From positions 235,911-299,910 of the IMG/VR virus record IMGVR_UViG_3300035070_002626: a stretch of 64,000 bases of DNA. One strand, 5' to 3'. Shown piece after piece: positions 11,036 to 64,000 of the stretch (within the stretch, counting starts at the first letter, position 1; each line of letters begins with the position of its first letter). The translations under genes and the position numbers were made by a program. The DNA is from a virus. The notes beneath the pieces were generated by a model, which was given only the letters and a program-made list of their open reading frames with translations, had not been told where the DNA came from and did not search any database.

Positions 11036-11043
11036 TATTTATC
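11036..11043 (-). promoter_or_regulatory. Late promoter GATAAATA overlapping a stop codon
   Basis: Seven of eight matches to the late octamer. It contains the TAA stop (11039-11041) of the radical SAM gene and lies five bases before the ATG of the gp67-like gene. Confidence 0.6.
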
Positions 11044-12061
11044 CAAAATCTATATCTATAGGATCAATCCTTCCTGCACCTAGAACTGATCCTTTTGAGC
11101 AGTTTCCTATACAAATGTTATGACAGGTTTTTATACTATCAAAACTATTTTTAAGTTTAAATTTGTAAAAATCTGACTGTGCAATATCACTTATACTGTG
11201 AATATTCAAATTTATATCGTTGAGGTTGCCAATTATTTTTCTAAAAAGCCTATCAGACATTGTGTTTTTCCAAGTTGTTCCGGACGTCATACAGCACGGC
11301 AATACATACCCTTCATGATTTATGTACATATCCCCGTGTTGATTCCAGGAGCACTGAGGGCTTGTAAACTCGTTGATACTGTTTGCTACGCTGTGAGACT
11401 TAGTAACAAATTCTATTCCGTCTGCCATTTCTAAATCATACTGAAACTCCCCGTCGATATACACAGGCCAAATAGTAGTTCCAAAGAAATTTCTATTAGA
11501 GTATTGAACTTGAAAGTCTATAAATCCAAGATCTTTTGCCAATTGTCTAGCTTCCTCAATTTGATGTTGATTGTGTTTGAAAACTATGTATTTCCAAGTT
11601 GCATTTCCTCCGGCTGAAATAAAACTTTTTGCATTTTCAATAGTTTTTTCCCAGTTAGCATTTATTCTATAGATGTGATTTGTATCTTCTAATCCATCTA
11701 GTGCAAATACAACATGCACATTCTTATAGGCTGCTATCTCTGAAAACCACTTTTTATTGCGTATACTTCCATTAGTATTAATGTCAACCCGGTTGATGTC
11801 TTTAAAAAAGTCAACAAAATTTCCAATTTCAGGATTCATTACTGGATCGCCGTAATCGCCTTCAAACTTCATATATTTTAAGTTAGGCAAATACTTTAAA
11901 TCGAAATTTTTTGAAAAATTATCAAAACTTAAATGCCCCGGAGTAAGATTTTTATCTAAAAATCCATGTTCGTCAAATCTAGGACATTGTGGGCAGTGCA
12001 AGTTGCAAAAACTAGATGATTCGATTGTTAGTTGTTTAATTTTATTTAAATCTAAGAACAT
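11039..12061 (-). CDS. Radical SAM protein with SPASM-like C-terminus
   Basis: 340 residues. The [4Fe-4S]/SAM motif CX3CX2C is at C19, C23 and C26, followed by a GDYGDP (69-74) GGEP-like loop, DINTNGS (93-99) and FALDG (119-123), the usual barrel landmarks. The C-terminal cysteines C237, C256, C257, C313, C317 and C321 form a SPASM-type auxiliary cluster pattern around GYVLPCC. SPASM proteins act on peptides or other large substrates; the substrate here is unknown. The gene is inserted between portal and gp67 in the head operon and overlaps the upstream small gene by 10 bases, so it is expressed with head proteins. Modification of a virion protein is possible but is inference. Confidence 0.88.
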   Translation of the reverse strand: MFLDLNKIKQLTIESSSFCNLHCPQCPRFDEHGFLDKNLTPGHLSFDNFSKNFDLKYLPNLKYMKFEGDYGDPVMNPEIGNFVDFFKDINRVDINTNGSIRNKKWFSEIAAYKNVHVVFALDGLEDTNHIYRINANWEKTIENAKSFISAGGNATWKYIVFKHNQHQIEEARQLAKDLGFIDFQVQYSNRNFFGTTIWPVYIDGEFQYDLEMADGIEFVTKSHSVANSINEFTSPQCSWNQHGDMYINHEGYVLPCCMTSGTTWKNTMSDRLFRKIIGNLNDINLNIHSISDIAQSDFYKFKLKNSFDSIKTCHNICIGNCSKGSVLGAGRIDPIDIDFG

Positions 12062-34088: not shown

Positions 34089-34469
34089 ATGCCAACATTT
34101 ATCGGATACAGCACAATCGACAGATACAAGTCATACACAGTCACTGACTTTGCATTGATTAAACGTGATTTGTTAAACGCACTGAACATAAGACAAGGCG
34201 AAATGCCGGGTCGACCATCTGTAGGCACAACCATGTGGAGTTTAATTTATGAACCACAAAATGCTAGCACTTCTCAGCAAGTGATAACTGAAATTCAGCG
34301 AGTGGTTGCACAAGATCCTAGAATTGCTATCAGTGATATCAACGTTTATGCACAGGAAAACGGAATACTGGTTGAGTTAGAAGTACAAACAGTACAAGGA
34401 CAAAACGCCGAAATGATGGCTATTTTCTTTGATCAAAACCAGCAACGTGCAGCATTTTCAGACGTATAA
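34089..34469 (+). CDS. 25: Baseplate wedge protein gp25
   Basis: 126 residues (T4 gp25 has 132). The domain runs the whole length: DFALIKRDLLNALNIRQGE, the conserved MPGRPSVGTTMWSLIYEP loop (39-56) corresponding to the family EPR-type core, then VITEIQRVVAQDPRIAISDI and a final LEVQTV strand. gp25 belongs to the sheath-baseplate joint family, where it forms the first ring that nucleates sheath assembly in contractile tails. It lies just before gp6 as in T4-like baseplate clusters. Confidence 0.93.
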   Translation: MPTFIGYSTIDRYKSYTVTDFALIKRDLLNALNIRQGEMPGRPSVGTTMWSLIYEPQNASTSQQVITEIQRVVAQDPRIAISDINVYAQENGILVELEVQTVQGQNAEMMAIFFDQNQQRAAFSDV

Positions 34470-34483
34470 ACTACCCAGTTTAT
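34466..34483 (+). other. AT-rich hairpin between gp25 and gp6
   Basis: ATAAACT and AGTTTAT form a perfect seven-pair stem around ACCC, starting inside the codon before the gp25 stop. No U-run follows, so it may be a processing or weak pausing signal. Confidence 0.3.
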
Positions 34484-34489
34484 TAGTAT

Positions 34490-34497
34490 CATAAATA
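34490..34497 (+). promoter_or_regulatory. Late promoter CATAAATA for gp6
   Basis: Seven of eight matches, followed by C as in other copies here, 21 bases before the gp6 ATG with AAGGATAG in between. Confidence 0.65.
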
Positions 34498-34517
34498 CTT
34501 GCCAAGGATAGATAAAC

Positions 34518-37500
34518 ATGGCAAAAACAACTAGACAAACCAGTATATTCGGCGTTGAGGATTGGAAAAGAATTTACCAAACCTATCGCGAAGCTGACTT
34601 TCAAAGCTATGACTTTGAAACATTAAGAAAAAGTTTTATCGACTACATACGTCTGAATTATCCAGAAAGTTTCAACGACTACATTGAAAGTTCAGAATTT
34701 ATTGCCCTCCTTGATGTTATGGCATTCATGGGACAAGCAGGTAGCTTTCGTAATGACCTAAACACAAGAGAGAACTTCCTTGACACTGCAGAACGTAGAG
34801 ACAGTGTAACACGATTAGCCGAATTAGTAAGTTACACTCCTAAACGTAACACAGCGGCGCAAGGTTTTTTAAAAATACAAAGTATTAGCAGTACCGAAGA
34901 CATAGTTGATTTTACAGGTGTTAACTTGTCTAATGTTACAGTCAATTGGAACGATACTACTAATCCAAACTGGCTAGAGCAATTTACTGTAATTGTTAAC
35001 AGTGCCCTGAACGGTAGCCAAAGATTTGGCAACCCAGGAAACAGTCAAAATATTCTTGGTGTGCAAAATGATGAGTATCAGATCAACCTTGCACCTGGGT
35101 TTCTTCCGGTAGTACCATTTTCGTCAACAGTTAACGGCAGTAACATGGTATTCGAAGCAGTAAGCTCGACATCATTGAACAAAAATTACATGTATGAACC
35201 TGCGCCAAAGCCCAACGGTGCATTTAATATGTTGTATAGAAACGACAAACAAGGTTACGCCAGTGCTAACACAGGTTTCTTTTTCATGTTTAAACAAGGG
35301 TCATTGACAGATTATCCTTTTAACTTGGGTGAGCGTATCAGTAACCGAGTAGTCAACGTAAACATCGAAGGAATCAATAACGAAGATGTTTGGTTGTATG
35401 AAATAGACGCAGCCGGTGCAGTTAAGGATGAATGGGATTATGTAGAAAACTTGTACACAGGCGCAGTTGAGCAACTTACTCCGGAGCAGCGTAGATATTT
35501 CACCATTACATCAAGAACAAATGATCAAATCAATTTGAACTTTGGCGACGGAGTATTTTCTGCTATCCCAGTTGGTACATTTAGATCTTATGTTAGAGCA
35601 TCAAATGGGTTGAACTATGTTATCAATACCAATGAAATGCAAAACATTGTTATTTCTATTAGCTACATAAGCAGAACTGGACGCAACGAAACGCTGTCAA
35701 TGTCTTGTGCATTAACACAGCCAGTGAGTAATGCAACCAATAGAGAAAGCATTAGCCAAATCAAGCAACGTGCACCTGCTAGATTTTATACACAAAATAG
35801 AATGGTTAATGGCGAAGATTACAACAACTTTCCTTATACATTGTACAACACAATTATCAAATCAAAAGCAGTTAATAGAAGTTCCATTGGGACAAGCCGC
35901 TACTTAGACTTGGTTGACATTACTGGAAAGTACAGTTCAACTAACGTGTTTGCCAGTGATGGATTGATTTACGAAACCACCGATACACCGGGTTTTACAT
36001 TTACATTTGTTGATCAAAATGATATTAGCAATGTTATTGTTAACCAAGTAGAACCTTTGCTATCTAGTAGAGGCATGCAAGAGTTTTACTATCAGAACTT
36101 TACTCGCCCAGATCTAACTAGTTTAAATCTTAACTGGAATCAAAGTACAACAGCTAACAATGAAACAACAGGTTATTTTAGATTTGCTGCTACCAACGCC
36201 CCAGCACCAGTTGGCCCTCAGACTTCAGACAATAAACAATACATTGAACAAGGGGGTTTAGTTAAATTTGTACCACCAGCTGGACAATATTTTACCAAGT
36301 TTAACAGATTAGCAGTTGGTAGCCCAACACAACCCGGTGATAAAATGGTGTTGTGGGCAACAGTTACTCAGCTTGAGCTTAATGGCACAAACTTTGGAGT
36401 TGGCAACAACGCAGACGGAACAGGACCGGTAACACTTAATAACTTTATTCCAACAAATGCTGTACCGGTGCAGGTAATTTCAAACTTTGTTACTGACTTA
36501 CCTACTACTATCGAGCAAACCATGCGTGAACAAATTGAATTGTACAGAGCGTTTGGATTGGGTTACAACAACCTCACTGGTAACTGGTATGTTATTACAG
36601 CAACCAACCTAGATGACAGCACAACTTTCAGTCTTGCTAATGCACAAAACACAAGCGGCGCAAATTTAGACAACAGTTGGTTAGTTGCGTTTGAAACAGA
36701 TGGGGTTACATACTCGGTAACTTCGAGAAGCTTGGAACGCTTCTGGGCTAGTGTGCTGGAAACTCGATTCTTTTATGACGGCACACAAAAAGTATACGAT
36801 CCAAAAACTGGTACAGTTATCAACGATTTTATCAATGTACTAAAAACAAATAATCAACCTGATTCTAGTTCAACACTAAACAGTGATGAGGTGCTTGACA
36901 TTATTGGACAGCCAGCAGAAACAGATGGCTTTGTTGATGATTTCCGTGTTAGAATTAGTTATAAAGATTCAGACAACGATGGTATTCCTGACAATCCGGA
37001 CTACTTTCAAACATTGGTTGCACCTACTACTAACCCTAACAGCAAACGAGTTTATCTACAAAAAACCATTGATTTTGACAATTTAGAAAGATATATTCCA
37101 CTAGCAAGCGGAGTTGTTAACGGGCAATATGCAACCAAGGATGCAATTGAATTAGTTAAAAGTGAATTTGCAGACAAACAAGTGTTTTATGCATACACTG
37201 ACAAACTGTTTTATATGTTAACAGTTTCTTATGACGGCGTTCGCACAATAACACAAGCTTTGGGTTATGTGGTTTATACTGGACGCCAAGATTTGTATTT
37301 CCAGTACAGACACAACGCTCCGTTGAGTAGAAGAATTGACCCGGGTACAACCAACATCATTGACATATATTTGGTAACTGATGCATATTATACTGCATAT
37401 CAAAACTATGTTAAAGACAGCACTGGCACTGTTAAAGAACCATCACAGCCTACTATCGACGAACTAACAACAAGCTACAGCACATTGAACGACTATAAAA

Positions 37501-52187: not shown

Positions 52188-53579
52188 ATGGCTTATACCA
52201 TTAACAAAACAGATGGTACGATCTTTGCAGTAGTTGCAGATGGTACTATTAATACAGATTCAAGCCAAATCATCGTAGGCAAAAACTACGCAGGATACGG
52301 CGAGTTCTTAGGAGAGAACTTTGTTCACTTGTTGGAAAATGCAGCAAACACAACTGCACCGGGAACACCGTTGCAAGGACAGTTATGGTATGATCAAACC
52401 AACAATGTTATTAAAGTATATAACGGCACATTGTTCAAGTCTATTTCGGGCGCAACTTCATCAACATCGGCACCGACTAGTAATGTAGCAGGCGACCTTT
52501 GGTTTGATACTGTAAACGATCAACTTAAAGTATACAGCGGTAGTGCTTTTGTAACGATTGGTCCAGCGTTTACTAGCGGCGAAGGCACTTCGGGCGCTAT
52601 TGTTGACACTATCACTGATAGTAGTCCAGGCGCAGATCATGTTGTTGTGTTGATGTATGTTAATAATGTTATTTGTGGTATTTGGTCTAAAGACGCAACT
52701 TTTACTCCGGCTGCGGCACTTTCGGGCTTTGCTACAATTTCTCCAGGTCTGAACTTGAGCACCACAGTAGCTGGCGCAACATTTAAGGGTACAGCATCAA
52801 ATGCTGATACACTTGACAGCTTAAACAGCACACAGTTTATGCGGGCAGATGCAGCCACTAGTACAACCGGGACATTAAGTGTATTAAATGATACTGGTGT
52901 ATACTTCGGCGGCGACAATGATGGTCGACTAAATGTTAGTGGCACAGATGTGTACTTTCAAAATCAAACACAAGATGGCGATATTATAATTCGTGTTAAC
53001 GATGGTGGTGTACAAACTACTGCTATGACAATTGATGGCGCAACTTCAGTTGTTACTGTTAACACTAGCTTGGTTTCAACAGGCTCAGTAACAGTTGGCA
53101 GTATAGTAAATGGCAATGCTGACGGCGTTGGTAATATTGGATCTCCTTCATTATCTTTTGACACAGTGTACGCTAGAGCAACGTCTGCAGAATACGCCGA
53201 TTTGGCGGAGCGTTTTGCAGCAGATGCAGAATATGCTCCTGGTACAGTTGTTGAACTCGGCGGTAGCGAAGAAGTTACAATTTGCGTAGATGATCTTTCG
53301 ACTAATGTTTTTGGGGTAGTATCAACTCGTCCAGCTTACACAATGAATGCAGGATCCGGGAACGATGCTACACATCCAGCAATTGCTATGACCGGGCGTG
53401 TTCCAGTTATGACAATGGGTTTTGTGTCTAAAGGTGATAGACTAGTAAGTGCAGGCAACGGCACAGCTAGAGCAGCAACTTTGGATGAAGTAACAGCATT
53501 TAACGTAATCGGCCGTGCGCTAACGAATAAGGAAAGCGACGGTTTTGGTACTGTAGAAGCGATTGTGAAAATTAGTTAA
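52188..53579 (+). CDS. Tail fibre-type structural protein
   Basis: 463 residues. The N-terminus (MAYTINKTDGTIFAVVADGT, then GQLWYDQTNNVIKVYNG and GDLWFDTVNDQLKVYSG) has two copies of the 'G-LW-D-----KVY-G' unit common in marine phage fibres. The middle is beta-rich (SNADTLDSLNSTQFMRAD, GGDNDGRLNVSGTDVYFQNQ). The C-terminal domain starts at YADLAERFAADAEYAPGTVV, continues GVVSTRPAYTMN and ends in GRALTNKESDGFGTVEAIVK, a self-contained fold often ending phage fibre proteins. It probably forms a trimeric fibre attached to the baseplate. Preceded by tandem late promoters, so strongly expressed late. Confidence 0.75.
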   Translation: MAYTINKTDGTIFAVVADGTINTDSSQIIVGKNYAGYGEFLGENFVHLLENAANTTAPGTPLQGQLWYDQTNNVIKVYNGTLFKSISGATSSTSAPTSNVAGDLWFDTVNDQLKVYSGSAFVTIGPAFTSGEGTSGAIVDTITDSSPGADHVVVLMYVNNVICGIWSKDATFTPAAALSGFATISPGLNLSTTVAGATFKGTASNADTLDSLNSTQFMRADAATSTTGTLSVLNDTGVYFGGDNDGRLNVSGTDVYFQNQTQDGDIIIRVNDGGVQTTAMTIDGATSVVTVNTSLVSTGSVTVGSIVNGNADGVGNIGSPSLSFDTVYARATSAEYADLAERFAADAEYAPGTVVELGGSEEVTICVDDLSTNVFGVVSTRPAYTMNAGSGNDATHPAIAMTGRVPVMTMGFVSKGDRLVSAGNGTARAATLDEVTAFNVIGRALTNKESDGFGTVEAIVKIS

Positions 53580-53703: not shown

Positions 53704-54630
53704 ATGGCGTACACAGCAGGAGATGTAATCTCACATGCAGATTACAATGATTTCGCTCAAAAAACAGATACAGTTTGGGGCACTGGTGCCGGAACTGACG
53801 GCTACGGGCAAACCAACACAATCGGTACAGTAACTGGTGGTGTTACAATTACAGCGACACAATGGGCAACATTGCTAGCAAGAATAACAAGTGCAGCAAA
53901 CCACCAGGGGTCGACAATTACAGCAATAACAAGTCCGACTGCTGGCGACACTATTTCGGCATATGCTGCATTGGCAACAAACGTTGCAGCGATCCAAAAC
54001 AATAATAATGCCGCTGCTAGTGGCAGTGATGCTACAGCAACTACTACAACAACTAGTGCGTGGACTGCAACTGCAACAACAAGCAAAACTGTTACATTTG
54101 CTAGTGCCGACCAACTGCGTTATTTCTTTAATGCCGGCGGCATGATTAGAATGGGTTTTAGTCGCACAGGCGGAACTGCAAGTGATCAAAACACTTCTTG
54201 GACAAACTTATTAGACCAAGCTGGTACAATTGTATTAACAGGATCTGGTAATCCAGGTTTTACTAAAACTATTGCAGGTGTAACTTACACTGGTACTACT
54301 AGAATTGGTGGCAGCGGCACCCCATCTACACTAGCCGAGGGAATTGGTGCGTATAACCTTACTGGGACAAACCAAACACTTTACAAACAATTCGCTACTA
54401 CATACACTTATACGTCAAACTACACTCAAATTGACGCATCAATTAGTGGAAATGTTATTACGTTCACAGTAACGCTAGCTGATGTCAGTGGTCCAAACGT
54501 ACCCGGCGGACTTGACAGCATCGACGGAACACTTACTATGACTACAACAATTCGTCAACCATCAACTACATACATTGCAAGTACATGGGGTTCAGTAACG
54601 CAGAATGCTGCATCTTGGACGCTAACTTAA
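53704..54630 (+). CDS. Possible receptor-binding fibre protein
   Basis: 308 residues. A conserved small-helix start (AYTAGDVISHADYNDFAQKT) is followed by WGTGAGTDGYGQ, a helical stretch with Asn/Ala/Thr runs (about 95-125) and a C-terminal beta domain: YFFNAGGMIRMGFSRTGGTA, TYTGTTRIGGSGTP, then ISGNVITFTVTLADVSG. The 'FN-GG-IR' phrase recurs in tail and fibre tip proteins. It may be the adhesin at the end of the fibre module, inferred from position and composition. It has its own promoter and structured leader. Confidence 0.6.
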   Translation: MAYTAGDVISHADYNDFAQKTDTVWGTGAGTDGYGQTNTIGTVTGGVTITATQWATLLARITSAANHQGSTITAITSPTAGDTISAYAALATNVAAIQNNNNAAASGSDATATTTTTSAWTATATTSKTVTFASADQLRYFFNAGGMIRMGFSRTGGTASDQNTSWTNLLDQAGTIVLTGSGNPGFTKTIAGVTYTGTTRIGGSGTPSTLAEGIGAYNLTGTNQTLYKQFATTYTYTSNYTQIDASISGNVITFTVTLADVSGPNVPGGLDSIDGTLTMTTTIRQPSTTYIASTWGSVTQNAASWTLT

Positions 54631-54655: not shown

Positions 54656-54684
54656 GTTTGCATGCTAACTACTAGCATGCAAAC
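54656..54684 (+). other. 12-bp perfect hairpin covering candidate start codons
   Basis: GTTTGCATGCTA (54656-54667) and TAGCATGCAAAC (54673-54684) form a perfect inverted repeat with loop ACTAC. The ATGs at 54662 and 54677 each lie inside one arm. Confidence 0.7.
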
Positions 54685-54982
54685 AGACCAACTCTCCCAA
54701 AACATTAAAACTAGATTTGATCATCAGCAAGCCAGGATTGTCTTGCGGGAAACGTATCAGGCTAAGATGCTTTTTGCGCATAGTGGCGGTATGTGGAAAG
54801 CATCGCCAGACTTGATTGTGTTGTGTGATTGTTGCCAAGATTCACTTGTAGTACTTGAAGATTATTATAATACACCAGTTAGTGTGGATCCGCGTGAACT
54901 TAAAAAATTAGCAATGCAGAGATGGCAGGAACAAATGAACGCCTGGCAAGCTGAATACAATGAAATTTCTAAACAAAGATGA
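54662..54982 (+). CDS. Small conserved phage protein, unknown
   Basis: 106 residues from ATG 54662, or 101 from the in-frame ATG 54677; both are buried in a hairpin, and only AGG about 12 bases before 54662 resembles a ribosome site. The sequence is helical and hydrophilic: TRFDHQQARIVLRETYQAKM, FAHSGGMWKASPDLI, a CDCC (about 51-54), and LKKLAMQRWQEQMNAWQAEY. I recall such a protein after the fibre genes in marine T4-like phages, possibly a structural or assembly factor; no T4 name can be given. Its stop overlaps the next start (ATGA). Confidence 0.6.
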   Translation: MLTTSMQTDQLSQNIKTRFDHQQARIVLRETYQAKMLFAHSGGMWKASPDLIVLCDCCQDSLVVLEDYYNTPVSVDPRELKKLAMQRWQEQMNAWQAEYNEISKQR

Positions 54983-55773
54983 CAACGGGTGCTTTACTTT
55001 TTGCGTTTGACAGTGAAATACAGTATACCAAACTTGCGGTTGAATGTGCTCGTCGAATAAAAGAACACCTCGGCATTCCAGTAACATTAGTCACTGACAA
55101 ACTTGTTGACTCGGGTATGTTCGATAATCAAGTTATAGTTGATCGAGGCAAAAACACCAATAGGCGATATTTTCATGATAGAAAAGAAACAACAACTTGG
55201 TATAACTTCGGCAGAAATGCTGCACTTGACTTGTCTCCTTATGATAGAACGCTATTAGTTGACACAGATTATATGGTCAACAGCGATTCATTAGCGCCGT
55301 TACTGGATAGTTCACAGCCCTTCTTGTGTCACAAACATGTGCGAAGTGTACACCAGCCGTCTCCAAGGCTGCAAAAGTTTGGAACAAAAAATTCACACAT
55401 GTGGTGGGCAACAGTTGTTATTTTTGATCGTCGCAGCCAATTTACACAAGATGTGTTTGATATTTGGAAAATGGTGGAACAAAATTATTCACACTATGGA
55501 GCGATGTTTGGATTTAACACTAAACAATATCGCAACGACTTTGCAATAAGCATTGCATTATTACTAGCCAATGGAAATACACACCCACATCAATGTGAAA
55601 TTCCGTGGCCAATGGCAAATGTAGAAACTGATGTAGAAATTGATTTAGTTGATGATACATGGTGGATCGAATACATCAATGATAAACGCAAAAAGAAAAT
55701 TTGTGTTAAAAATCATGATCTACATGTTATGTGCAAGAGTTATTTGGAGAAACTGTATGCAGTACGAAGCTGA
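54979..55773 (+). CDS. Glycosyltransferase-like protein (GT-A, GT8-type)
   Basis: 264 residues. A GT-A fold order is visible: ALLFAFDSEIQYTKLA at the N-terminus, VTLVTDKL, then the metal-binding DTD (95-97) in RTLLVDTDYMVNSD, followed by PFLCHKHVRSV and MWWATVVIFDR, and a C-terminal DFAISIALLLANG helix. Family 8-like enzymes move sugars from nucleotide donors to glycan or protein acceptors. It begins the overlapping accessory cassette, coupled to the small gene before it and overlapping the next glycosyltransferase-like gene by 17 bases. Substrate unknown. Confidence 0.72.
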   Translation: MTTGALLFAFDSEIQYTKLAVECARRIKEHLGIPVTLVTDKLVDSGMFDNQVIVDRGKNTNRRYFHDRKETTTWYNFGRNAALDLSPYDRTLLVDTDYMVNSDSLAPLLDSSQPFLCHKHVRSVHQPSPRLQKFGTKNSHMWWATVVIFDRRSQFTQDVFDIWKMVEQNYSHYGAMFGFNTKQYRNDFAISIALLLANGNTHPHQCEIPWPMANVETDVEIDLVDDTWWIEYINDKRKKKICVKNHDLHVMCKSYLEKLYAVRS

Positions 55774-56536
55774 TCGAGGATATCTAATTGTTGCAGGAAC
55801 TGCTGACAGTGTTGACTATATTTCCTGTGCAGAAACACTTGCAAAAAGTCTTAAGTACTGGCATCCGGATGTAAAGATTTGTCTAGTTACAGATCATGAA
55901 AACTATGCAAATCCTCTTTTTGATTATGTTAGGCAATTTCCGCAAGGAAACACAGGCGGCTGGTCCACTGATTGGCAAGTATTTTATGCTAGCCCATTTC
56001 ACGAAACTGTAAAACTCGAAGCAGACATGGTTGTCAGTGGCCCGATTGATCATTGGTGGCCACTATATCGAAACATGCCAGTTTGGATTAGCACCGGTGC
56101 ACGAAATTTCCATGGAACCACAACAACTGTGCGAAATTACAGAAAAATATTTGATCATAACAATTTACCTGATGTATATAATGCAATTACTTACTGGAGA
56201 GTAAGCCCTGATGCAGAACGATTCTTTAATAATGTAAAACAATGTTTTTACGATTGGGATAAAATTAAACTCAACATCAAGCTAGGAAGCGACGAAATAG
56301 CTAATACAGATTTAATTTATGCATTAAATGGCAGCGACTTTGTTACTCCGGGAATTGGTCCTCAAATTGTACACATGAAACCTAGAATACTTGGTACTAG
56401 TGCTGACGACTGGGCAAAAGAGCTAACATGGGAAGTAGACGATGGGGTACTACGTATCAACGGGCATAATCAACACGGATTTGTTCACTATCATCAAAAA
56501 GAACTAGCACAGCAATTAGGGCAGTACTATGACTGA
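55757..56536 (+). CDS. Second glycosyltransferase-like protein
   Basis: 259 residues from ATG 55757, chosen for its GGAGAAACTGT ribosome site; a longer in-frame ORF upstream would overlap the previous gene by over 100 bases. Features: GYLIVAGTADSVDYISCAET, VKICLVTDHENY, WQVFYASPFHETVKLEADMV (EAD in the DxD position), PVWISTGARNFHG, and NAITYWRVSPDAERFF. The pattern parallels the preceding GT-A protein, so the two are probably distant paralogs; the weaker DxD suggests altered metal use or a scaffold role. Overlaps genes on both sides by 17 and 8 bases. Confidence 0.62.
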   Translation: MQYEADRGYLIVAGTADSVDYISCAETLAKSLKYWHPDVKICLVTDHENYANPLFDYVRQFPQGNTGGWSTDWQVFYASPFHETVKLEADMVVSGPIDHWWPLYRNMPVWISTGARNFHGTTTTVRNYRKIFDHNNLPDVYNAITYWRVSPDAERFFNNVKQCFYDWDKIKLNIKLGSDEIANTDLIYALNGSDFVTPGIGPQIVHMKPRILGTSADDWAKELTWEVDDGVLRINGHNQHGFVHYHQKELAQQLGQYYD

Positions 56537-56876
56537 AGAAGAACTAGCACAATTGTTTGACCAAATAATAGCAGACAATAAACCGGTTGACTATGAATAC
56601 AGATTGTACTATAATAAAGAAACTGGAGAACCTTTGTTCTACAGTATGGAAGAACATCACGATGGCGATTACATTACAGTAACACAGAAACAGCACAGCG
56701 AAGGTCGGTATGATATCCTTGTTCTCAAAGGCAGCATTGTCAGACGAAATGATGCAGTTAGTTGGACAAAACTAGCACCATCCGAGTCGGGTACTAGGTG
56801 CAGAGCTGACAATGCAATGATTGTGGATAACAACAGTGATATTAAGTGGGCTAGTAAAACATATTATCTAAAGTAA
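56529..56876 (+). CDS. Small conserved protein, unknown
   Basis: 115 residues: an acidic start (MTEEELAQLFDQIIADNKPV), then a beta-rich core YEYRLYYNKETGEPLFYSME, GDYITVTQKQHSEGRYDI and SIVRRNDAVSWTKLAPSESG, ending SDIKWASKTYYLK. There is no signal peptide and no enzyme motif. Its position between sugar transferases is the only functional hint. It overlaps the upstream gene by eight bases, so it is translated from the cassette message. A late-promoter-like AGTAAATA contains its stop codon. Confidence 0.6.
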   Translation: MTEEELAQLFDQIIADNKPVDYEYRLYYNKETGEPLFYSMEEHHDGDYITVTQKQHSEGRYDILVLKGSIVRRNDAVSWTKLAPSESGTRCRADNAMIVDNNSDIKWASKTYYLK

Positions 56877-56904: not shown

Positions 56905-57234
56905 ATGAAGTATATACTAAATGCATTTATTGCAGGACTACTAGTACCAACTACAGTGTTGTCACAAGAACAAGAGACTAAATTTTTTCTTACTACACAA
57001 CCTTGTGCACCAGTTATTCAAATAACCGACACGATTATGAACAAGTATGGCGAAAAACCTTTGCACAGTGGCAGAGGCATGCAACGGAGTTCATCTGACA
57101 GCAAAGAGTATTGGAGTTCAATGATGTTTTTTGTTAACCAAGACTCGGGCACCTGGACCTTGGTAAGTCTGTATGAAGACGGAACAGCGTGTTTGGTTGC
57201 TAATGGCGGTGAGTTTAAACCTTACTCAAAGTAA
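56905..57234 (+). CDS. Small exported protein with signal peptide
   Basis: 109 residues. Residues 1-20 form a typical Sec signal peptide (basic MK, hydrophobic YILNAFIAGLLVPTTV, cleavage after VLS). The mature part contains CAPVIQITDTIMNKYGEKPL, a disordered SGRGMQRSSSDSKEYW and GTWTLVSLYEDGTACLVANG, with two cysteines that could form a disulfide in the periplasm. I recall similar small exported proteins in marine phage and bacterial genomes without known function. It may act in the periplasm or envelope of the infected cell. Confidence 0.65.
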   Translation: MKYILNAFIAGLLVPTTVLSQEQETKFFLTTQPCAPVIQITDTIMNKYGEKPLHSGRGMQRSSSDSKEYWSSMMFFVNQDSGTWTLVSLYEDGTACLVANGGEFKPYSK

Positions 57235-57248
57235 ATTATGGAGTTAAC

Positions 57249-58175
57249 ATGGATTCAATTGATATTGCCGATTTGGACTGTATCTATCTTTCTTACGATG
57301 AACCACAAAAAGAAGAGTTTTGGGTTAAGATACGCAACATGGTTCCGTGGGCAAAACGTGTTGATGGTGTAGAAGGCAGCGATGCTGCACACAAAGCCGC
57401 AGCACAAGCAAGTGACACTGAGCGTTTTATATTAATTGACGGCGACAATTTGCCCGAAGAGTCTTTTTTCAATCAAACCATTGAATACAAAGACAGTAGC
57501 TACGAAAAAGCAGTTTATCGCTGGAGAGCACGTAATCATGTTAATGGATTGATGTACGGCAATGGCGGTATGAGTTCTTGGACAAAAGAGTTTGTTATGA
57601 ACATGCGCACACATGAAGCAAGCGAAGGTGCTGATGACACTGATGTAGAGTTTTGTTTTGATCCACTGTACTGGCCGATGTACAATTGCTATTCAACTAC
57701 ACACCCAAATGGAAGTGCTAAACATGCTTGGCGGGCCGGCTTTCGTGAAGGTGTAAAGATGTGCCTTGACAGAGGACGCAAACCAACTGTTGGTGAATTT
57801 AAAGAACGAGTACACAGTCGCAATCTCGATCACTTGACCATCTGGCAAAATGTGGGCAGCGATGCAGATTACGGTCTGTGGGCAATTGCCGGTGCAAGAC
57901 TTGGTACATACAAAACCATGCTCACTGATTGGAACCACAAAGAAGTGCAATGGTTCGATAATCTAGAACAAATTTGGAATGATATAGAAAACACCGATCC
58001 ACTTAACATAATCGAAGAACATGCTAATGCATTAAACAGACAATTAGATTTGCCAATGAGCACATTTTCTCCAGAGCAGAGTAAGTTTTTTAAACATCAC
58101 TATCGCAGCAATTGGAACAATAAAAATATCATGACACGAGAAATTGATGTTATTCGCAGCCAAGAAGGTTGGTAA
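57249..58175 (+). CDS. Glycosyltransferase-like protein (GT-A)
   Basis: 308 residues. After a short N-terminal strand (LDCIYLSYDEPQKEEFW) comes WAKRVDGVEG and RFILIDGDNLPEES, where DGD (64-66) is the likely metal-binding motif of a GT-A fold, then AVYRWRARNHVNGLMYGNGG. The C-terminal half is rich in conserved aromatic and His residues (HAWRAGFREGVKMCLD, TIWQNVGSDADYGLWAIAGA) and may bind the acceptor. It is a third transferase-type enzyme in this cassette. SD GGAG. The next gene begins with a GTG one base after its stop. Confidence 0.65.
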   Translation: MDSIDIADLDCIYLSYDEPQKEEFWVKIRNMVPWAKRVDGVEGSDAAHKAAAQASDTERFILIDGDNLPEESFFNQTIEYKDSSYEKAVYRWRARNHVNGLMYGNGGMSSWTKEFVMNMRTHEASEGADDTDVEFCFDPLYWPMYNCYSTTHPNGSAKHAWRAGFREGVKMCLDRGRKPTVGEFKERVHSRNLDHLTIWQNVGSDADYGLWAIAGARLGTYKTMLTDWNHKEVQWFDNLEQIWNDIENTDPLNIIEEHANALNRQLDLPMSTFSPEQSKFFKHHYRSNWNNKNIMTREIDVIRSQEGW

Positions 58176-58176
58176 T

Positions 58177-59238
58177 GTGAAAGAGTTGTTTGCTAATCTT
58201 GACGCTAACTACAGGCATACATTGAAAGCAATGCCACGGGGCCAGACTGAATCTCGCCCAATCACATTTAGTTGCAATGTTCCGCATAAAGTTGTATCAA
58301 TTGATGATAACTTAAATTGTTTAGTATGCCTGTGTGATGGATGGCTTCCGCTTCCTGTAGGACAAGTACATGATTTTGAAAGTTTAGTTGACGTATTTTC
58401 TAGTCCAAAAGCAAAAATTCTACAAGATGATGTTGACGCAAAAAACTATACATGGTGTGCTGTGCAACATTGCGGAATTAAATACGGCAACATCGAGCAA
58501 TCGCATTACGAATTAGCCATTAACATTGATAGAAGTTGTAATTTACAATGTCCTAGTTGTCGTCGAGACAAGTTTATGTTAACATCGGGACCAATGTACG
58601 ACAAGAAGATCGCAGCATCAAATCGAATTTTAAGTTGGCTAGAAAAATTCGATGATAAGATTAACATTGTACTAAGCGGTGATGGAGATCCACTGGCTAG
58701 CTTGGTTGTTCGCCCAATAATTAAAAACTGGAAGTACAAACCTAATCAAACTCTTATACTAAAAACTAACGGGTTGTTATTACGGAAACAACTTCAAAAC
58801 ACTGAAATTCTTAAAAATGCATTTTTAAGTATAAGCATTGACGCTGGTAGTAAAGAAGTTTTTGAAAGTATTCGTCGTGGCGGTAATTGGGAAGTTTTAC
58901 TAGACAATTTTGATTTTTTAGTTAAGAATGACAAGCAACAAGTCACTACATTGAATTTTACTATACAAAATGATAATTATCTTGATTTAGAAAACTTTGT
59001 AGAGCTTTGTGAAAAATATCAGTTTCAGGGTTCTGTGGCTAAATTAGATGACTGGGGAACCTGGAATGATAAAACAGTTTCTAATCCAGACGAATGGACT
59101 CAAGAAAATGGTTACTTTTTTGAACATGATGTGTTACACTTAGAGCATGAGAATTACGAAGCAGCTAGACAAATATGCACCAAGTTTTTAAATCATCCAC
59201 TAGTGGGTATGAATCCGTCGGTGTTGGAAAGATTGTAA
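58177..59238 (+). CDS. Radical SAM protein, cassette copy 1
   Basis: 353 residues from GTG 58177 with AAGG about ten bases before it. The radical SAM motif is C121, C125, C128 in DRSCNLQCPSC. Before it stand C33, C48, C51, C53, C94 and C99, an arrangement suggesting an N-terminal SPASM/twitch-type auxiliary cluster that in most family members is C-terminal. Barrel landmarks: NIVLSGDGDPLAS (GGEP-like), LILKTNGLLL and FLSISIDAGS. Substrate unknown. Unlike the next three radical SAM genes it lacks the WKMED/YCWKIED block, so it represents a different subtype. Its TAA shares a base with the next ATG. Confidence 0.87.
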   Translation: MKELFANLDANYRHTLKAMPRGQTESRPITFSCNVPHKVVSIDDNLNCLVCLCDGWLPLPVGQVHDFESLVDVFSSPKAKILQDDVDAKNYTWCAVQHCGIKYGNIEQSHYELAINIDRSCNLQCPSCRRDKFMLTSGPMYDKKIAASNRILSWLEKFDDKINIVLSGDGDPLASLVVRPIIKNWKYKPNQTLILKTNGLLLRKQLQNTEILKNAFLSISIDAGSKEVFESIRRGGNWEVLLDNFDFLVKNDKQQVTTLNFTIQNDNYLDLENFVELCEKYQFQGSVAKLDDWGTWNDKTVSNPDEWTQENGYFFEHDVLHLEHENYEAARQICTKFLNHPLVGMNPSVLERL

Positions 59239-59900
59239 TGACTGGAGGAATGGTAATTGGATTTTATCCTGGTGCAGGTGGGCATAGGTATTATAATTCA
59301 CTAATCAATCGATCATTTGGTAAATCAGAGACAGTTTATGATAATGCCCCAACTGATTACAACGCACGTTACACAACCAATCAATCACATTCAACATATA
59401 CAGATATAGTTAGCAGTCATTGTGTAAACTACACAACATTAAAAAATTGTTATGTAAATCAAAATAATTTTACAATTATTCGAAGTGACCTTAAACGGAG
59501 TTTGTTTAGAGAATATAGATTAATTGGAAGAGAAAGATATTTACGAAATAAAATACAAGCAGAACCTGACTCTGTTAAACTTGAGCATTATCAACATTAT
59601 AAAGATAGCGCATGGCCAGATGTGTACACTATTAAACAGTATTACAGTTTGCCTGCATGGATTCAGAATGAAGTTAACAACGACCGCAAGCAGGTAGCAG
59701 AGAACATTGATTTTTTAGCAGCAGAAGCCACAATAGAATTTCACTACGATTATTACAACCAATACCCGTTTGAAATTGGCGGCGCTAAAATTGTTGATAT
59801 TGATCAAGATGACAACGAATTTTGTGCCGTTATGAGACAAGAGCTTGCAGTACCATTCTCTGAAGAATTTAATCAAGCATGGGAGAACATAGTTGGTTAA
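59238..59900 (+). CDS. Unknown protein with glycine-rich N-terminal loop
   Basis: 220 residues from ATG 59238, overlapping the previous stop by one base. The N-terminus MVIGFYPGAGGHRYYNSLIN recalls the phosphate-binding start of sulfotransferase-like or related nucleotide-using enzymes, but no Walker A lysine is present. Other blocks: NAPTDYNARYTTNQSH, DIVSSHCVNYTTLK, NFTIIRSDLKRSLFREYRLI and a C-terminal EEFNQAWENIVG. I have the impression of related unnamed proteins in marine phages. A small-molecule or group-transfer role is possible but not supported by catalytic residues that I can name. Confidence 0.6.
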   Translation: MTGGMVIGFYPGAGGHRYYNSLINRSFGKSETVYDNAPTDYNARYTTNQSHSTYTDIVSSHCVNYTTLKNCYVNQNNFTIIRSDLKRSLFREYRLIGRERYLRNKIQAEPDSVKLEHYQHYKDSAWPDVYTIKQYYSLPAWIQNEVNNDRKQVAENIDFLAAEATIEFHYDYYNQYPFEIGGAKIVDIDQDDNEFCAVMRQELAVPFSEEFNQAWENIVG

Positions 59901-60882
59901 TAGTTATACAGGATTTGGCAAACTACGTGAAGTTTGGTTAGGTGATTGCTACCCTGCAGAGTTTTATTCCGATTATGCACCAGCAGTGCGTGATGCATTT
60001 GAGCGTATAACCGAAATAACAAAGGAAGATCTTGCAAACATTGAATCTGTACTTACAGGGCTTAATGTACAGGTACGCAGACCTGTGTTTTCTAATAACA
60101 AAGAAGATTATACAAACAACAACGGTGCGCTGATTAAACCGCCGATCATGCCACGTGATGATAACTTGGTATTAGGAAAACAGTTTTTTCATTTACGAAA
60201 CCGATATCGTGTTGACCCCTGGCAGTCACATTTACCTGACAGTGTCGAAACCATTACAGCAGAACTTGAATGTTTGCAACCTCCTAGTATTGTTCGCTGC
60301 GGCAGAGATTTGTATATCGATCGAGACTCGCATCAACACATATGGGGAATGGTAGGCAGTACGTTTTTAGACTGGGCACAAGACTACCGAGTGCATATTA
60401 TTGATACAGGCGGACACAGTGATGGTGTTTTTTGCCCAGTGGCACCTGGGATTATTGTTGCAAGTTGCTGGATGGAGGAGTACAGTCAAACTTTTCCTGG
60501 CTGGGAAGTATTCCAATTACCAAAGGAACGTGTTGAACATTTTGGCAAATGGTGGATAGATGATCACACTGTGTCTAACAACAACGAGTTTGCCGACCAT
60601 ATAAATAAATTCGCAATCGATTGGATTGGGGACTTTACAGAAACACAATTTAGTGTTAATATGTTAGTAGTAGATTCAAAGACTGTAATCAGTGTAAATG
60701 AAAATCGTGAACTAAATGACTTTTTAGATCAACGTGGGATTAATGTCATTATTGCACCATTCCGTGCCAAGAGCTTCTGGGACGGGGGATTGCATTGTCT
60801 AACAGTAGACACAGTTCGCGACGATACACAACAGGATTTTTTTCCCGAGCGCGGCAACAGAAATTATTTGGATTGGATGTAA
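59893..60882 (+). CDS. Amidinotransferase-like pentein protein
   Basis: 329 residues from a TTG start (59893-59895) with GGGAG eight bases before, overlapping the preceding gene by eight bases. Family marks of glycine/inosamine amidinotransferases (pentein fold) appear: GKLREVWLGD (9-18), an RDD (88-90), SIVRCGRDLYIDRDS (132-146), DTGGHSDGVF (171-180) with H175 and D177, and the catalytic Cys C302 in SFWDGGLHCLTVDTVRD (294-310). Such enzymes transfer the amidino group of arginine to an amine, or hydrolyse arginine derivatives. It is flanked by radical SAM genes. The substrate, and whether it transfers or hydrolyses, cannot be told. Confidence 0.85.
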   Translation: MVNSYTGFGKLREVWLGDCYPAEFYSDYAPAVRDAFERITEITKEDLANIESVLTGLNVQVRRPVFSNNKEDYTNNNGALIKPPIMPRDDNLVLGKQFFHLRNRYRVDPWQSHLPDSVETITAELECLQPPSIVRCGRDLYIDRDSHQHIWGMVGSTFLDWAQDYRVHIIDTGGHSDGVFCPVAPGIIVASCWMEEYSQTFPGWEVFQLPKERVEHFGKWWIDDHTVSNNNEFADHINKFAIDWIGDFTETQFSVNMLVVDSKTVISVNENRELNDFLDQRGINVIIAPFRAKSFWDGGLHCLTVDTVRDDTQQDFFPERGNRNYLDWM

Positions 60883-62309
60883 TGCAAAACAAAGGCGACG
60901 AAGTCGATGCAGACTTTAAAAGTAAATTTTTAAGTGATGCAGAAATTGCACAACAAAAATTAGACACAGTAAGTCCTAGCATGTGTCTTGCTAAGTGGAA
61001 GCAACTCAGCTTGCACCTTACCACTGGAATGAACAACAGTTGTTATCATCCGCCATTACACAGGGCAGATGCAGTAGCTATTAAGAAAAATCCTAGTGCG
61101 TTACATAATACGGACTATAAAAAGCAACAACGCAAGCTAATGCTAGAAGGTGTGCGACCAAACGAATGTGACTACTGCTGGAAGATGGAAGACAACGGAA
61201 AACTAAGCGATAGGCATTATCGCAGTGGCGAACCATGGGCAATTAAAGACTTTGAAAAAATAACAAATGCAAATTGGGATGAAGATATCACTCCTAGTTA
61301 TGTTGAAGTAGACTTTAACAGTGCATGCAATCTAAGTTGTAGCTATTGTTCACCACAATATAGTTCGACTTGGATGGCCGAAACAGAAAAGCATGGTGCT
61401 TGGCCAACTAGTACACCACACAATGATCCTGCACACTTTACAGGAGAACGCAAGCCTATACCTGCTAGGGAATACAATCCATATGTAGAAGCCTTTTGGG
61501 AATGGTGGCCTACCTTGTATCCAGAGTTAGAACACTTTCGGATGACAGGCGGTGAGCCACTAATGGATAAAAATACATATCGAGTATTTGATCATGTGTT
61601 AGCTAATCCCAAACCAGACTTGCATTTAAGTACAACATCTAACTTTAGTGTAGATGAAAAATTGTGGCAAAAATACAAAAATTATGTATACAAGTTGTGC
61701 AGTACACACGGCAATGTAGAACACTTCATGCAGTATGTGAGCTTGGACGGGATGTTCGAACAAGTAGAATATGTACGGCACGGGCTTGACTTTGAGCTGT
61801 TGTGGGACAGAGTGCATCAATTCTTGCGTGATATACCAGAACGTAATAGTGTTACATTTATTGTAACAATGAGTAATCTAAGCGTGACCACGCTGCACAA
61901 ATTGTTTGCTGCTATACTTGAACTAAGACAAACATACAGCACAACATATCAACGAGTGTGGTTTGATACCCCAGTGTTGCGTACACCAACTTGGCAAAGT
62001 TTGCAACTGCTACCTGAGAGCTATGTATATGAACTTGAAGCTATCAAGACTTGGATGCTAGATAATCTTGAAACTGAAGCCACCCGGTTTCACGGATTTA
62101 AGGACTATGAAGTTAACCGTTTGGACAGAGACATTGCCTGGATGCGCAATGGGCAAAAATTATCTCCAGAATACATTAATCGTAATAAAGCAGATTTCTA
62201 TAGGTTTTTCAACGAGCATGACCGTCGACGCAACACAGACTTTTTAAGAACATTCCCAGAAATGACAGACTGGTGGAATGATTGTAAATATCAAGCCATT
62301 AACACATAA
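60882..62309 (+). CDS. Radical SAM protein with twitch-type cluster, copy 2
   Basis: 475 residues from ATG 60882, which shares its A with the amidinotransferase stop. The radical SAM motif is C149, C153, C156 (SACNLSCSYC) followed by SPQYSSTWMAE and an FRMTGGEPLMD loop. The N-terminal region has C35, C54, C96 and C99 with CDYCWKMED (96-104), a SPASM/twitch-like auxiliary Fe-S arrangement placed before the barrel. The C-terminal region is helical with DRDIAWMRNG and FLRTFPEMTDWW. It is closely paralogous to the next gene, sharing the order Cys motif - 'YCWK.ED' - 'CSYC.P..SSTW' - 'F..W......L...R.TGGEP'. Probable peptide or small-molecule modification; substrate unknown. Confidence 0.88.
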   Translation: MQNKGDEVDADFKSKFLSDAEIAQQKLDTVSPSMCLAKWKQLSLHLTTGMNNSCYHPPLHRADAVAIKKNPSALHNTDYKKQQRKLMLEGVRPNECDYCWKMEDNGKLSDRHYRSGEPWAIKDFEKITNANWDEDITPSYVEVDFNSACNLSCSYCSPQYSSTWMAETEKHGAWPTSTPHNDPAHFTGERKPIPAREYNPYVEAFWEWWPTLYPELEHFRMTGGEPLMDKNTYRVFDHVLANPKPDLHLSTTSNFSVDEKLWQKYKNYVYKLCSTHGNVEHFMQYVSLDGMFEQVEYVRHGLDFELLWDRVHQFLRDIPERNSVTFIVTMSNLSVTTLHKLFAAILELRQTYSTTYQRVWFDTPVLRTPTWQSLQLLPESYVYELEAIKTWMLDNLETEATRFHGFKDYEVNRLDRDIAWMRNGQKLSPEYINRNKADFYRFFNEHDRRRNTDFLRTFPEMTDWWNDCKYQAINT

Positions 62310-62323
62310 GAGATACATACATT

Positions 62324-63676
62324 ATGCCCAAGCAAAATAACGAAACAGATTTACAATATAAAAATCGGGTGCTCGATCCATTGAGTTCCAGTATGTGCGG
62401 AGCTAAATGGTACAACGCTACTATATGGCTAGGATCAGGAATGACCACTAGCTGTCACCATCCTTTGCCTCATCATATATCTGTTGAAGAAGTGCAAGCA
62501 AACCCAAAAGCATTACACAACACTCCTCGCAAAAAAGAAGAACGTAGACAAATGCAATGCGGCGAACGCCCAAGCGGATGCGAATATTGCTGGAAAATTG
62601 AGGACATTGGCAGAGATAATATATCTGACAGAACATATAAAAGTGTAATCTACTCAGATGAAGATTTGCAATCAGCACATGCACTGGATTATAACGAAGA
62701 TGTTGATCTTAAAACATTGGAAATTGCATTTGATAGAACTTGTCAGTTTGCTTGCAGTTATTGCAATCCAGCATTTAGTTCAACCTGGGTTAAAGATCTG
62801 AAAAAACACGGTGCATACGAAGATTTAATCAGTGATGGTCGCAATCATTTTACGCACACACATGACAGTAATCAACTGTACACTTACAACGAAACAAACC
62901 CATACATTGAAGCGTTTTTTAAATGGTGGGAAAGCGACTTGCATAGAACACTCGACGAATTACGTATCACAGGCGGCGAACCAGCAATGAGCGGCCACTT
63001 GTGGAAGTTGCTTGACTGGTTTAAAGAAAATAAAGGCGCAAGCACCACACGAATTGCAATCAACAGTAACTTGGGCCTTGCTACTGCTGATATGGAAAAA
63101 TTGCTTGACAGAGCTGCTAGTGCGCCACTGGACATTTATACATCAAATGAAAGTATGCCAGTACAAGCAGAATACATCCGTGACGGACTAGAATGGGAAA
63201 CTTGGGATCGAAACATGCACATGTTGGCCAATTCGGGTAAAATACGTGGGTTGCACAATATGTGCACAATCAACGCATTGTGCTTGGAAACACTTCCTGA
63301 GTTTTTGGATTATCTACTAACATTCAAACAAACGTATGGCAGAGATTTCCCAAGCTTTACGTTAAACATTTTACGTTTTCCTAGTTTCCAAAGCCCATTG
63401 GTATTGCCAGACGAAATTCGAATGTTGCATAAAGATCGTTTGCAAAATTGGCTAAACACAAACAGAGACAATACATTATTGCACGAACATGAAATTAACC
63501 AAACTGAACGATTGATTGACTATCTTGATGTTGTTAAAACACCACACAGCGACACATTTGATATGCCAAAACTACACAACGACTTTAAACGTTTTTATAC
63601 ACAGTACGACAAGCGCAGAGGTAAAGACTTTGCTACTGCATTTCCTAGCATGAAAGATTGGTACAATGAGCTATAG
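62324..63676 (+). CDS. Radical SAM protein with twitch-type cluster, copy 3
   Basis: 450 residues. Radical SAM motif C140, C144, C147 (RTCQFACSYC), then NPAFSSTWVKDLKKHGAY and LRITGGEPAMSG. The N-terminal auxiliary set is C25, C44, C86 and C89, with CEYCWKIEDIG (86-96). The C-terminus FATAFPSMKDWY parallels the previous gene. Clearly a duplication of the same architecture, though diverged, so the two may act on different substrates or successive positions. It starts 14 bases after the preceding stop with only a weak GAGA site and overlaps the next gene by 11 bases. Confidence 0.88.
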   Translation: MPKQNNETDLQYKNRVLDPLSSSMCGAKWYNATIWLGSGMTTSCHHPLPHHISVEEVQANPKALHNTPRKKEERRQMQCGERPSGCEYCWKIEDIGRDNISDRTYKSVIYSDEDLQSAHALDYNEDVDLKTLEIAFDRTCQFACSYCNPAFSSTWVKDLKKHGAYEDLISDGRNHFTHTHDSNQLYTYNETNPYIEAFFKWWESDLHRTLDELRITGGEPAMSGHLWKLLDWFKENKGASTTRIAINSNLGLATADMEKLLDRAASAPLDIYTSNESMPVQAEYIRDGLEWETWDRNMHMLANSGKIRGLHNMCTINALCLETLPEFLDYLLTFKQTYGRDFPSFTLNILRFPSFQSPLVLPDEIRMLHKDRLQNWLNTNRDNTLLHEHEINQTERLIDYLDVVKTPHSDTFDMPKLHNDFKRFYTQYDKRRGKDFATAFPSMKDWYNEL

Positions 63677-64000
63677 TTATAACAGTGCCGATCCAATTAA
63701 GATTAGGCTAGCAGATGTAAGTGAAAGAGAACGTGAACTTCTGTCTGAAAGTAAAACATTTTGTATGTACCCGTGGATACACTTGCATGCTTATCCTACA
63801 GGCGAAGCATACCCTTGTTGTCATGCCGAAATGGGTGTTGGTCAAGTTGGAAACTGCAAAAACAACACAATGGAAGAGATTTGGAATAGCCCAGAGCAAA
63901 AGCAACTGCGCAAAGACATGCTGTTAGAACAAGAAAACCCTGCGTGTGGACGTTGTTACGAACAAGAGAAAAGTGGATTCTTTAGTGGCCGTCAAAGTGC
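63666..64000 (+). CDS. Radical SAM family protein, N-terminal part, copy 4
   Basis: The window ends after about 111 codons. The visible part is the N-terminal SPASM/twitch-type cluster domain: FCMYPWIHLHAYPTGEAYPC with C33, C51 and C52, then GNCKNNTMEEIWNSPEQKQL (C64) and CGRCYEQEKSG (C94, C97). This 'GN....T..EIWNS....-LR..ML' pattern is typical of this domain. The radical SAM barrel itself should lie beyond the end, which is not seen. It overlaps copy 3 by 11 bases, continuing the cassette. Confidence 0.75.
   Translation, partial: MSYSYNSADPIKIRLADVSERERELLSESKTFCMYPWIHLHAYPTGEAYPCCHAEMGVGQVGNCKNNTMEEIWNSPEQKQLRKDMLLEQENPACGRCYEQEKSGFFSGRQS

Follow-up and report, generated by a model that had tools for sequence, protein, structure and literature searches.

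Why would a bacteriophage keep a row of radical S-adenosylmethionine (SAM) enzymes beside its tail-fibre genes? The question is raised by a 64,000-nucleotide stretch of viral DNA (the window), which is the right end (positions 235,911-299,910) of the 299,910-bp IMG/VR virus record IMGVR_UViG_3300035070_002626, here called contig G000, and which closes with such a row at positions 58,177-64,000. The first-pass annotation, made from the letters alone, described an array of four radical SAM proteins in the late cassette of a T4-like phage and supposed that they modify virion or host surface molecules. The real unit is a module of five genes, R2-R3-R4-R6-R7, and not four copies of one gene; the cassette around it is conserved in a lineage of uncultured jumbo myophages, and the window carries its left half. 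Five oxygen-sensitive enzymes, each dependent on SAM, a reductant and Fe-S clusters, are an expensive load for a phage, yet this lineage keeps them position by position.

Five radical SAM lines in a fixed order

The four genes singled out by the annotation (starting at 58177, 60882, 62324 and 63666; R1 to R4 in Table 1) are indeed radical SAM/SPASM proteins by their Pfam and NCBIfam scores, the last being an N-terminal part only. R2 and R3 stay under Pfam's cut-off for Radical_SAM (~6e-5) and pass the curated cut-off of 170 bits for NF033640 (NCBIfam N_Twi_rSAM, "twitch domain-containing radical SAM protein"). In the closest relative, L179 (IMGVR_UViG_3300018036_001349; R3 99% identical), R4, R5, R6 and R7 score 414, 232, 331 and 292 bits against this family, and R2-R7 span 231-414 bits overall. 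The R4 fragment of the window scores low because it is cut (95 bits over its first 82 positions); the complete R4 of L179 has 428 residues. A SPASM match in Pfam was obtained for R4 and R6. At 40 bits R1 falls outside NF033640, and its alignment holds 8 usable sequences against 97-125 for the other radical SAM genes; judged by these scores and alignments, R1 is accessory and stands outside the conserved set.

The window end coincides with the contig end, and the record has no end repeats. L179 reads through where G000 stops: past R4 come R5 (459 residues), R6 (400), a methylthioadenosine/S-adenosylhomocysteine (MTA/SAH)-type nucleosidase, a cytidylyltransferase-like gene, R7 (438), gt358, the SAM synthetase MetK and the carbamoyltransferase CbT. 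Positions 920-2458 of G000 encode the same CbT (97% identical), and since CbT lies past R7 in L179 and at the very start of G000, the contig very probably continues from its right end into its left end. Positions 1-941 of G000, in the slot between the MetK and CbT positions of L179, hold the KDO synthesis genes for KdsA (partial, read by eye) and KdsB. An array of four could thus not be upheld: R1 is accessory, R6 and R7 lie past the contig end, and the contig as a whole has nine radical SAM genes.

The cluster-binding motif CX3CX2C is found in R1, R2 and R3, and that of R4, which falls beyond the contig end, is intact in the relatives. Its three cysteines are cysteine in every aligned sequence of R2 (125 sequences), R3 (120), R4 (114), R6 (108) and R7 (97), and the SAM-binding motif GGEP is likewise invariant in all five. 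The N-terminal auxiliary cysteines are 100% conserved as well, four in R2 and R3 and five in R4, R6 and R7. Auxiliary cysteines ahead of the barrel had been described for the second and third copies as their shared architecture; this is correct for those two and is not confined to them, as all four genes of the window have them before CX3CX2C. A C-terminal auxiliary domain of the classical SPASM/twitch kind was not seen in these proteins. The maturases SkfB, anSME and PqqE similarly join a radical SAM barrel to an auxiliary cluster, and in them the auxiliary domain is C-terminal. The phage module differs from these enzymes in its N-terminal auxiliary domain, and no precursor peptide or recognition domain was found with it. 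With other NF033640 members R2-R7 share both the score and the auxiliary Fe-S domain ahead of the barrel; the family name gives no function, and what sets the phage module apart within it is a fixed set of five distinct orthologous lines.

More than 580 of the first 600 IMG/VR pattern matches encode R2 or R3 relatives. We kept 163 loci, which gave 127 groups after loci with an identical protein had been merged; R2 and R3 are present in these by construction, the other genes were not selected for, and many loci end early. Under these terms gtC occurs in 122 groups, R4 in 118, R6 in 112, R7 in 105, gt358 in 94 and CbT in 76, and the order R2-R3-R4-R6-R7 holds in 103 of the 103 phage groups with all five genes. 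Selection by the head protein instead of a radical SAM gene gave the same picture: each of the three large contigs that reach the expected site, ~54 kb away, holds R3 (E < 1e-240), and the two of five contigs picked by the capsid gene that have no R3 orthologue both end before that site. The annotation had proposed a shared multi-enzyme pathway and had named loss of CX3CX2C in homologs, or homologs outside any conserved neighbourhood, as arguments against it; neither was seen, and the proposal gains support.

The module is carried by a large group of giant phages, all uncultured, that come from marine and lake water. The major head protein of G000 matches phrog_138, and its nearest relatives among isolates are jumbo phages: Sinorhizobium phage Phosso (66%), followed at 61-64% by Vibrio phage 2.275.O, PA5oct and Escherichia/Erwinia 121Q-type phages. 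"T4-like" is therefore apt in a broad sense, with Phosso, PA5oct and the 121Q-type Escherichia phages as the closer reference. Neither R2 nor gtC has a match in 50,697 phage records (isolates), in which matches of R4 and R6 are 22-28% identical.

Over the same 71 groups, mean pairwise identity is 71% for R7, 69% for R2, 67% for R3 and for gtC, 57% for R4 and 56% for R6, as against 53% for tail463, 45% for gtB, 42% for fib308 and 40% for gtA, and each of the five orthologous lines has 96-166 nearly invariant positions. Because the cluster cysteines and GGEP are invariant and identity lies above that of the fibre and of most glycosyltransferase-like genes, the module proteins are judged to be maintained as active enzymes; constraint of this degree marks a chemistry important to the lineage. 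The idea that they are the most conserved genes of the phage was rejected: the head protein is 81-92% identical to that of the window across relatives, whereas the radical SAM proteins are 56-71% identical between phages and exceed only the fibre, tail463 and gtA/gtB. Distances correlate moderately between families (R2-R3 0.49) or hardly (R7-tail463 0.09), and these values therefore indicate past recombination in the module and less than strict co-inheritance with the tail genes.

A passive pile of duplicated genes with no joint pathway would be in keeping with the many radical SAM paralogues here, which amount to 8-16 NF033640 matches in the largest contigs of these genomes and to 20 of the 122 further cargo proteins discussed below. 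We consider this very improbable in view of the fixed order, the nearly invariant positions of five orthologous lines and a single Bacteriovoracaceae contig on which each of the five has an orthologue.

Linked sugar genes and bacterial relatives

CbT is a carbamoyltransferase of the NodU/TobZ type (PF02543, Carbam_trans_N, 2.5e-36; PF16861, Carbam_trans_C, 1.6e-52). Past CbT and a DUF59 gene, on the opposite strand, locus L264 and G000 show AmtB (a paralogue of the amidinotransferase AmtA), the unassigned genes g4596 and g5765, and a gene of 524 residues; genes for a Gfo/Idh/MocA oxidoreductase, a DegT/DnrJ/EryC1/StrS aminotransferase and an NAD-epimerase are found there too. The aminotransferase is encoded at full length in 23 of 24 genomes, on the opposite strand and, as positions compare, ~8-13 kb past R7; that of G000 is at the other contig end. 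Pfam confirms Gfo/Idh/MocA, epimerase and FkbM genes and places a DUF59 Fe-S assembly protein among the linked genes, and KdsB was confirmed as well. A further 122 unassigned proteins of the variable cargo, from which those matching the AmtA, g4596 or g5765 references are left out, include 14 of the NAD-epimerase/GDP-mannose-dehydratase types and single matches to UDP-sugar dehydrogenase, hexapeptide transferase and GHMP kinase.

The transferase-like genes are less easily placed. None of gtA, gtB, gtC and gt358 has a Pfam match, and gt358 has no match in the PDB. A DxD-type motif is invariant in gtA and gtC (DGD in the latter). The AlphaFold2 model of gtC (predicted local distance difference test, pLDDT, 75.5) gave weak Foldseek matches to ArnC, PcManGT and HddC, all with GT-A or nucleotidyltransferase folds (best E 1e-3, low template-modelling (TM) score).

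Some members also carry genes that bear on SAM itself. MetK was found in just 2 of 24 records; the MTA/SAH-type nucleosidase, a possible means of removing 5'-deoxyadenosine, is present in 9 of 127 groups. Together with DUF59 they suggest heavy radical SAM traffic during infection in these members. General self-supply of SAM by the phages was rejected given the two MetK records.

A scan of GTDB contigs returned relatives of the module, several of which are phage contigs binned as bacteria (L188-L191 and L228). A contig of the Bacteriovoracaceae genome UBA6144 (L196) is chromosomal: it has R3-R7-R6-R4-R6-x-R2-R3 between rplU/rpmA/obg and lgt, housekeeping genes that were named by eye. A close R3 orthologue (E < 1e-150) is present in ~10 of 192 Bdellovibrionota genomes, once on a 2.66-Mb contig. 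Its neighbours there include ABC-2 exporter, GT4, DegT and carbamoyltransferase genes, as one might expect if a modified glycan or glycopeptide were exported, and PqqD-like genes adjoin it in three loci. Near one such orthologue a Bdellovibrionota protein of ~650 residues (L281:1134-3086) fuses a SPASM radical SAM part to what is by eye a DegT/StrS-type aminotransferase. Another Bdellovibrionota protein of ~650 residues (L282:14037-15974) has a start like that of the fusion.

Radical SAM cassettes in marine myophages have been noted before, and the statement that such a pathway is not characterised holds for function only. Nishimura et al. (2017, PMC5332604) reported 12 radical SAM genes and paaD in the T4-like environmental genome TARA_ERS488813_N000010, and a host recognition cluster of pelagimyophages combines glycosyltransferases and radical SAM cassettes by the tail fibres, the glycosyltransferases being read as O-chain modification (2020, PMC7029224). 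Tasman Sea phages were found to be enriched in radical SAM and glycosyltransferase genes (PMC7150976). The first two regions resemble the present one in having clustered radical SAM genes in marine myophages, and PaaD/DUF59 is common to TARA_ERS488813_N000010 and the module genomes. They were described as variable, with their radical SAM genes not resolved into a module, whereas here, across more than 100 groups of a jumbo-phage lineage, five such genes retain both their order and their motifs. In a literature search that was thin on subscription papers and preprints, we found no description of the ordered module, of its chromosomal orthologues in Bdellovibrionota or of the link to sugar-amine genes.

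Candidate substrates of the module

Five defined enzymes, linked sugar-amine genes and bacterial orthologues make the question of the substrate directly testable. Because of the linked sugar genes we lean towards a glycan, which narrows the earlier supposition about virion or host surface molecules, and we infer a single pathway with a surface destination for its product. R2, R3, R4, R6 and R7 would act in succession on a sugar or glycoconjugate, by radical steps such as dehydrogenation, epimerisation, deoxygenation or C-C/C-N rearrangement. Nucleotide-sugar enzymes (the epimerase/dehydratases, the Gfo/Idh/MocA oxidoreductase and the DegT/StrS aminotransferase) would supply an amino sugar, to which guanidino and carbamoyl groups might be added in optional amidinotransferase and carbamoyltransferase steps, and the GT-A-like transferases would attach the amino sugar to host surface or virion. 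We put the chances that the five act in this way, in modification of an amino-sugar glycan, at about even.

Several observations support the glycan. The order is fixed, the cysteines are fully conserved, gtC, gt358 and CbT occur in most groups, and the DegT gene is nearly constant among the genomes covered; the Bdellovibrionota neighbours of R3, the SPASM-radical SAM/DegT fusion and the O-chain precedent (PMC7029224) add to this. The same kinds of enzyme also make up amino-sugar and aminocyclitol pathways (StrB1/AGAT, StsC/DegT, TobZ/NodU and a BtrN-type twitch radical SAM enzyme), a likeness that extends to the parts list only, with AmtA in just 6 of 127 groups.

Other observations weigh against a glycan. 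No member of the twitch family here has a known substrate, and the best fold and profile match is a peptide maturase, SkfB, rather than a sugar enzyme. The PqqD-like neighbours of R3 in Bdellovibrionota have a peptide-recognition fold, and the five-gene array of L196 lies beside obg and lgt with no adjacent sugar genes. The transferase assignments are affected too, with gtA, gtB and gt358 lacking a family match and gtC having the weak fold matches given above, and the counts of MetK and nucleosidase make self-supply a minority trait.

In the main rival reading the enzymes would install RiPP-like (ribosomally synthesised and post-translationally modified peptide) crosslinks, epimerisations or oxidations on a neighbouring tail-fibre or virion protein, for example fib308, and so alter stability or receptor binding. 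Compared with the PDB, the AlphaFold2 model of R3 (pLDDT 82.5; predicted TM score 0.82) finds SkfB first (4e-5), with anSME, viperin, MoaA and BlsE at 2e-3 or weaker, and SkfB is the sole profile match of R4 and R6. Among viral models it comes closest to proteins of uncultured Caudovirales (E to 1e-21, TM 0.77-0.82) and to those labelled "MoaA/nifB/pqqE" in Vibrio phages phi-pp2 and KVP40. The cassette begins directly after the fibre genes, and the PqqD-like genes near R3 would suit a protein substrate.

Phosso and Agrobacterium phage Atu_ph07, both cultured, offer a parallel at the same site, after tail221-tail463, where each has several adjacent radical SAM genes. In Phosso (L184:11618-18742) and Atu_ph07 (L186:15388-22460) four other radical SAM genes accompany a ~300-residue protein that ends in CHxSCHxSCHxSRSRR (CHTSCHASCHSSRSRR and CHSSCHASCHNSRSRR, respectively), and these radical SAM proteins have partial matches to HxsB, HxsC, PapB and DynA. 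As far as motifs and partial matches can tell, the array resembles a system of the RiPP type whose target would be a phage protein. Its radical SAM proteins are not NF033640 members, however, the protein with the CHxS tail occurs in no other isolate of the collection, and no tails of this type were found in the window lineage.

A protein substrate meets further difficulties in the phage module itself. No small open reading frame is conserved (21 unrelated small ones in 163 loci, with frames of 60 residues or more searched), no PqqD or RiPP recognition element was seen in the module, and PqqD is absent from the listed Pfam families of the cargo. A conserved tail rich in Cys/His is missing from fib308, which is 38% conserved against 59-68% for the enzymes, and a fibre substrate would leave DegT, the epimerases and the carbamoyltransferase unexplained. 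On balance we regard modification of a neighbouring virion protein as rather unlikely, yet as a serious rival to the glycan on account of SkfB, PqqD and the parallel Phosso/Atu_ph07 arrays.

Viperin matches, weak by profile as by fold, could instead point to a small molecule or modified nucleotide, whether a viperin-like chain terminator, a DNA base hypermodification or a cofactor. ThyX is encoded near the module in phage genomes, as is the TobZ/NodU-type carbamoyltransferase, and carbamoylated 5-hydroxymethylcytosine occurs in phage DNA. The best score against the viperin family NF038283 is, however, 34 bits, far under its cut-off of 180; viperin has no N-terminal twitch domain, and the tail-side position and the sugar cargo fit such products poorly. 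We judge a product of this kind improbable.

The amino-sugar reading can be carried further, to a claim that we advance tentatively and believe less readily than glycan modification as such. The five enzymes might form a complete ordered line for a new amino-sugar decoration, possibly bearing guanidino or carbamoyl groups, and this line would be common to a widespread lineage of jumbo phages and to some Bdellovibrionota chromosomes. In some phages it would be served by a SAM synthetase, a 5'-deoxyadenosine/SAH nucleosidase and an Fe-S assembly protein of the phage's own.

Cassette genes and other radical SAM loci

The cassette, a closely packed row of genes on one strand, is listed in Table 1 as it stands in the window. 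Nearly all of its junctions had been said to overlap by 1 to 17 bases, which overstates the case: between x106 and R4, 7 of 11 do (x106/gtA by 4 bases, gtA/gtB 17, gtB/x115 8, R1/P241 1, P241/AmtA 8, AmtA/R2 1 and R3/R4 11), and the other four have gaps of 1-28 bases. The PA5oct relative of tail463 is a virion structural protein by mass spectrometry. AmtA matches HsvA (5e-10), AGAT (7e-9), SxtG (1.4e-6) and StrB1 (1.4e-3) with the catalytic Cys region aligned, and is by homology an amidinotransferase.

Table 1. Cassette genes in the window, from the tail-side boundary to the contig end
Gene	Position	Strand	Reading	Evidence or occurrence
tail463	52188..53579	+	virion protein with conserved C-terminal domain, directly upstream of cassette	relatives in PA5oct, Phosso, Atu_ph07
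fib308	53704..54630	+	fast-evolving fibre-like protein, possible protein substrate	115/127 groups, median identity 38%
x106	54662..54982	+	small conserved protein	111/127 groups
gtA	54979..55773	+	putative GT-A type glycosyltransferase, invariant DxD (D95, D97)	118/127 groups; no Pfam match
gtB	55757..56536	+	putative glycosyltransferase; start ATG 55757	120/127 groups; no Pfam match
x115	56529..56876	+	conserved small protein	80/127 groups
sig109	56905..57234	+	accessory small protein, signal-peptide-like start	9/127 groups
gtC308 (gtC)	57249..58175	+	core gene, putative GT-A fold enzyme, invariant D64-G-D66	122/127 groups, median identity 68%
R1	58177..59238	+	accessory radical SAM protein, N-terminal auxiliary cysteines	Pfam Radical_SAM 3.6e-11; NF033640 40 bits; few relatives
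P241	59238..59900	+	accessory gene	7/127 groups; no Pfam match
AmtA	59893..60882	+	accessory amidinotransferase, AGAT/StrB1/SxtG/HsvA family	PDB sequence matches; 6/127 groups
R2	60882..62309	+	core N-terminal-twitch radical SAM enzyme	NF033640 309 bits; 7 cluster Cys 100% (125 sequences)
R3	62324..63676	+	core N-terminal-twitch radical SAM enzyme	NF033640 294 bits; 7 cluster Cys 100% (120 sequences)
R4	63666..64000	+	N-terminal SPASM/twitch part of core radical SAM enzyme, cut by contig end	SPASM 8.9e-13; NF033640 95 bits

Further radical SAM genes turned up elsewhere. Vibrio phage K566 has adjacent radical SAM genes ~24% identical to R4; three are annotated side by side (L379:12010-22472), and the gene after them encodes the lipid A acyltransferase PagP, as would suit modification of the host envelope. 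A single Elusimicrobia metagenome-assembled genome, bin-0981 (L202, L203 and other contigs), has 67 NF033640 matches, many of them fused behind tetratricopeptide repeats in proteins of ~550-1200 residues, with three to seven such genes in a tandem row. Within the window, a separate small radical SAM gene with C-terminal SPASM-like cysteines lies on the minus strand at 11039-12061, in the head-gene block, and positions 34100-35698 of G000 encode another radical SAM protein of a different kind, with the motif CVRKCTFC.

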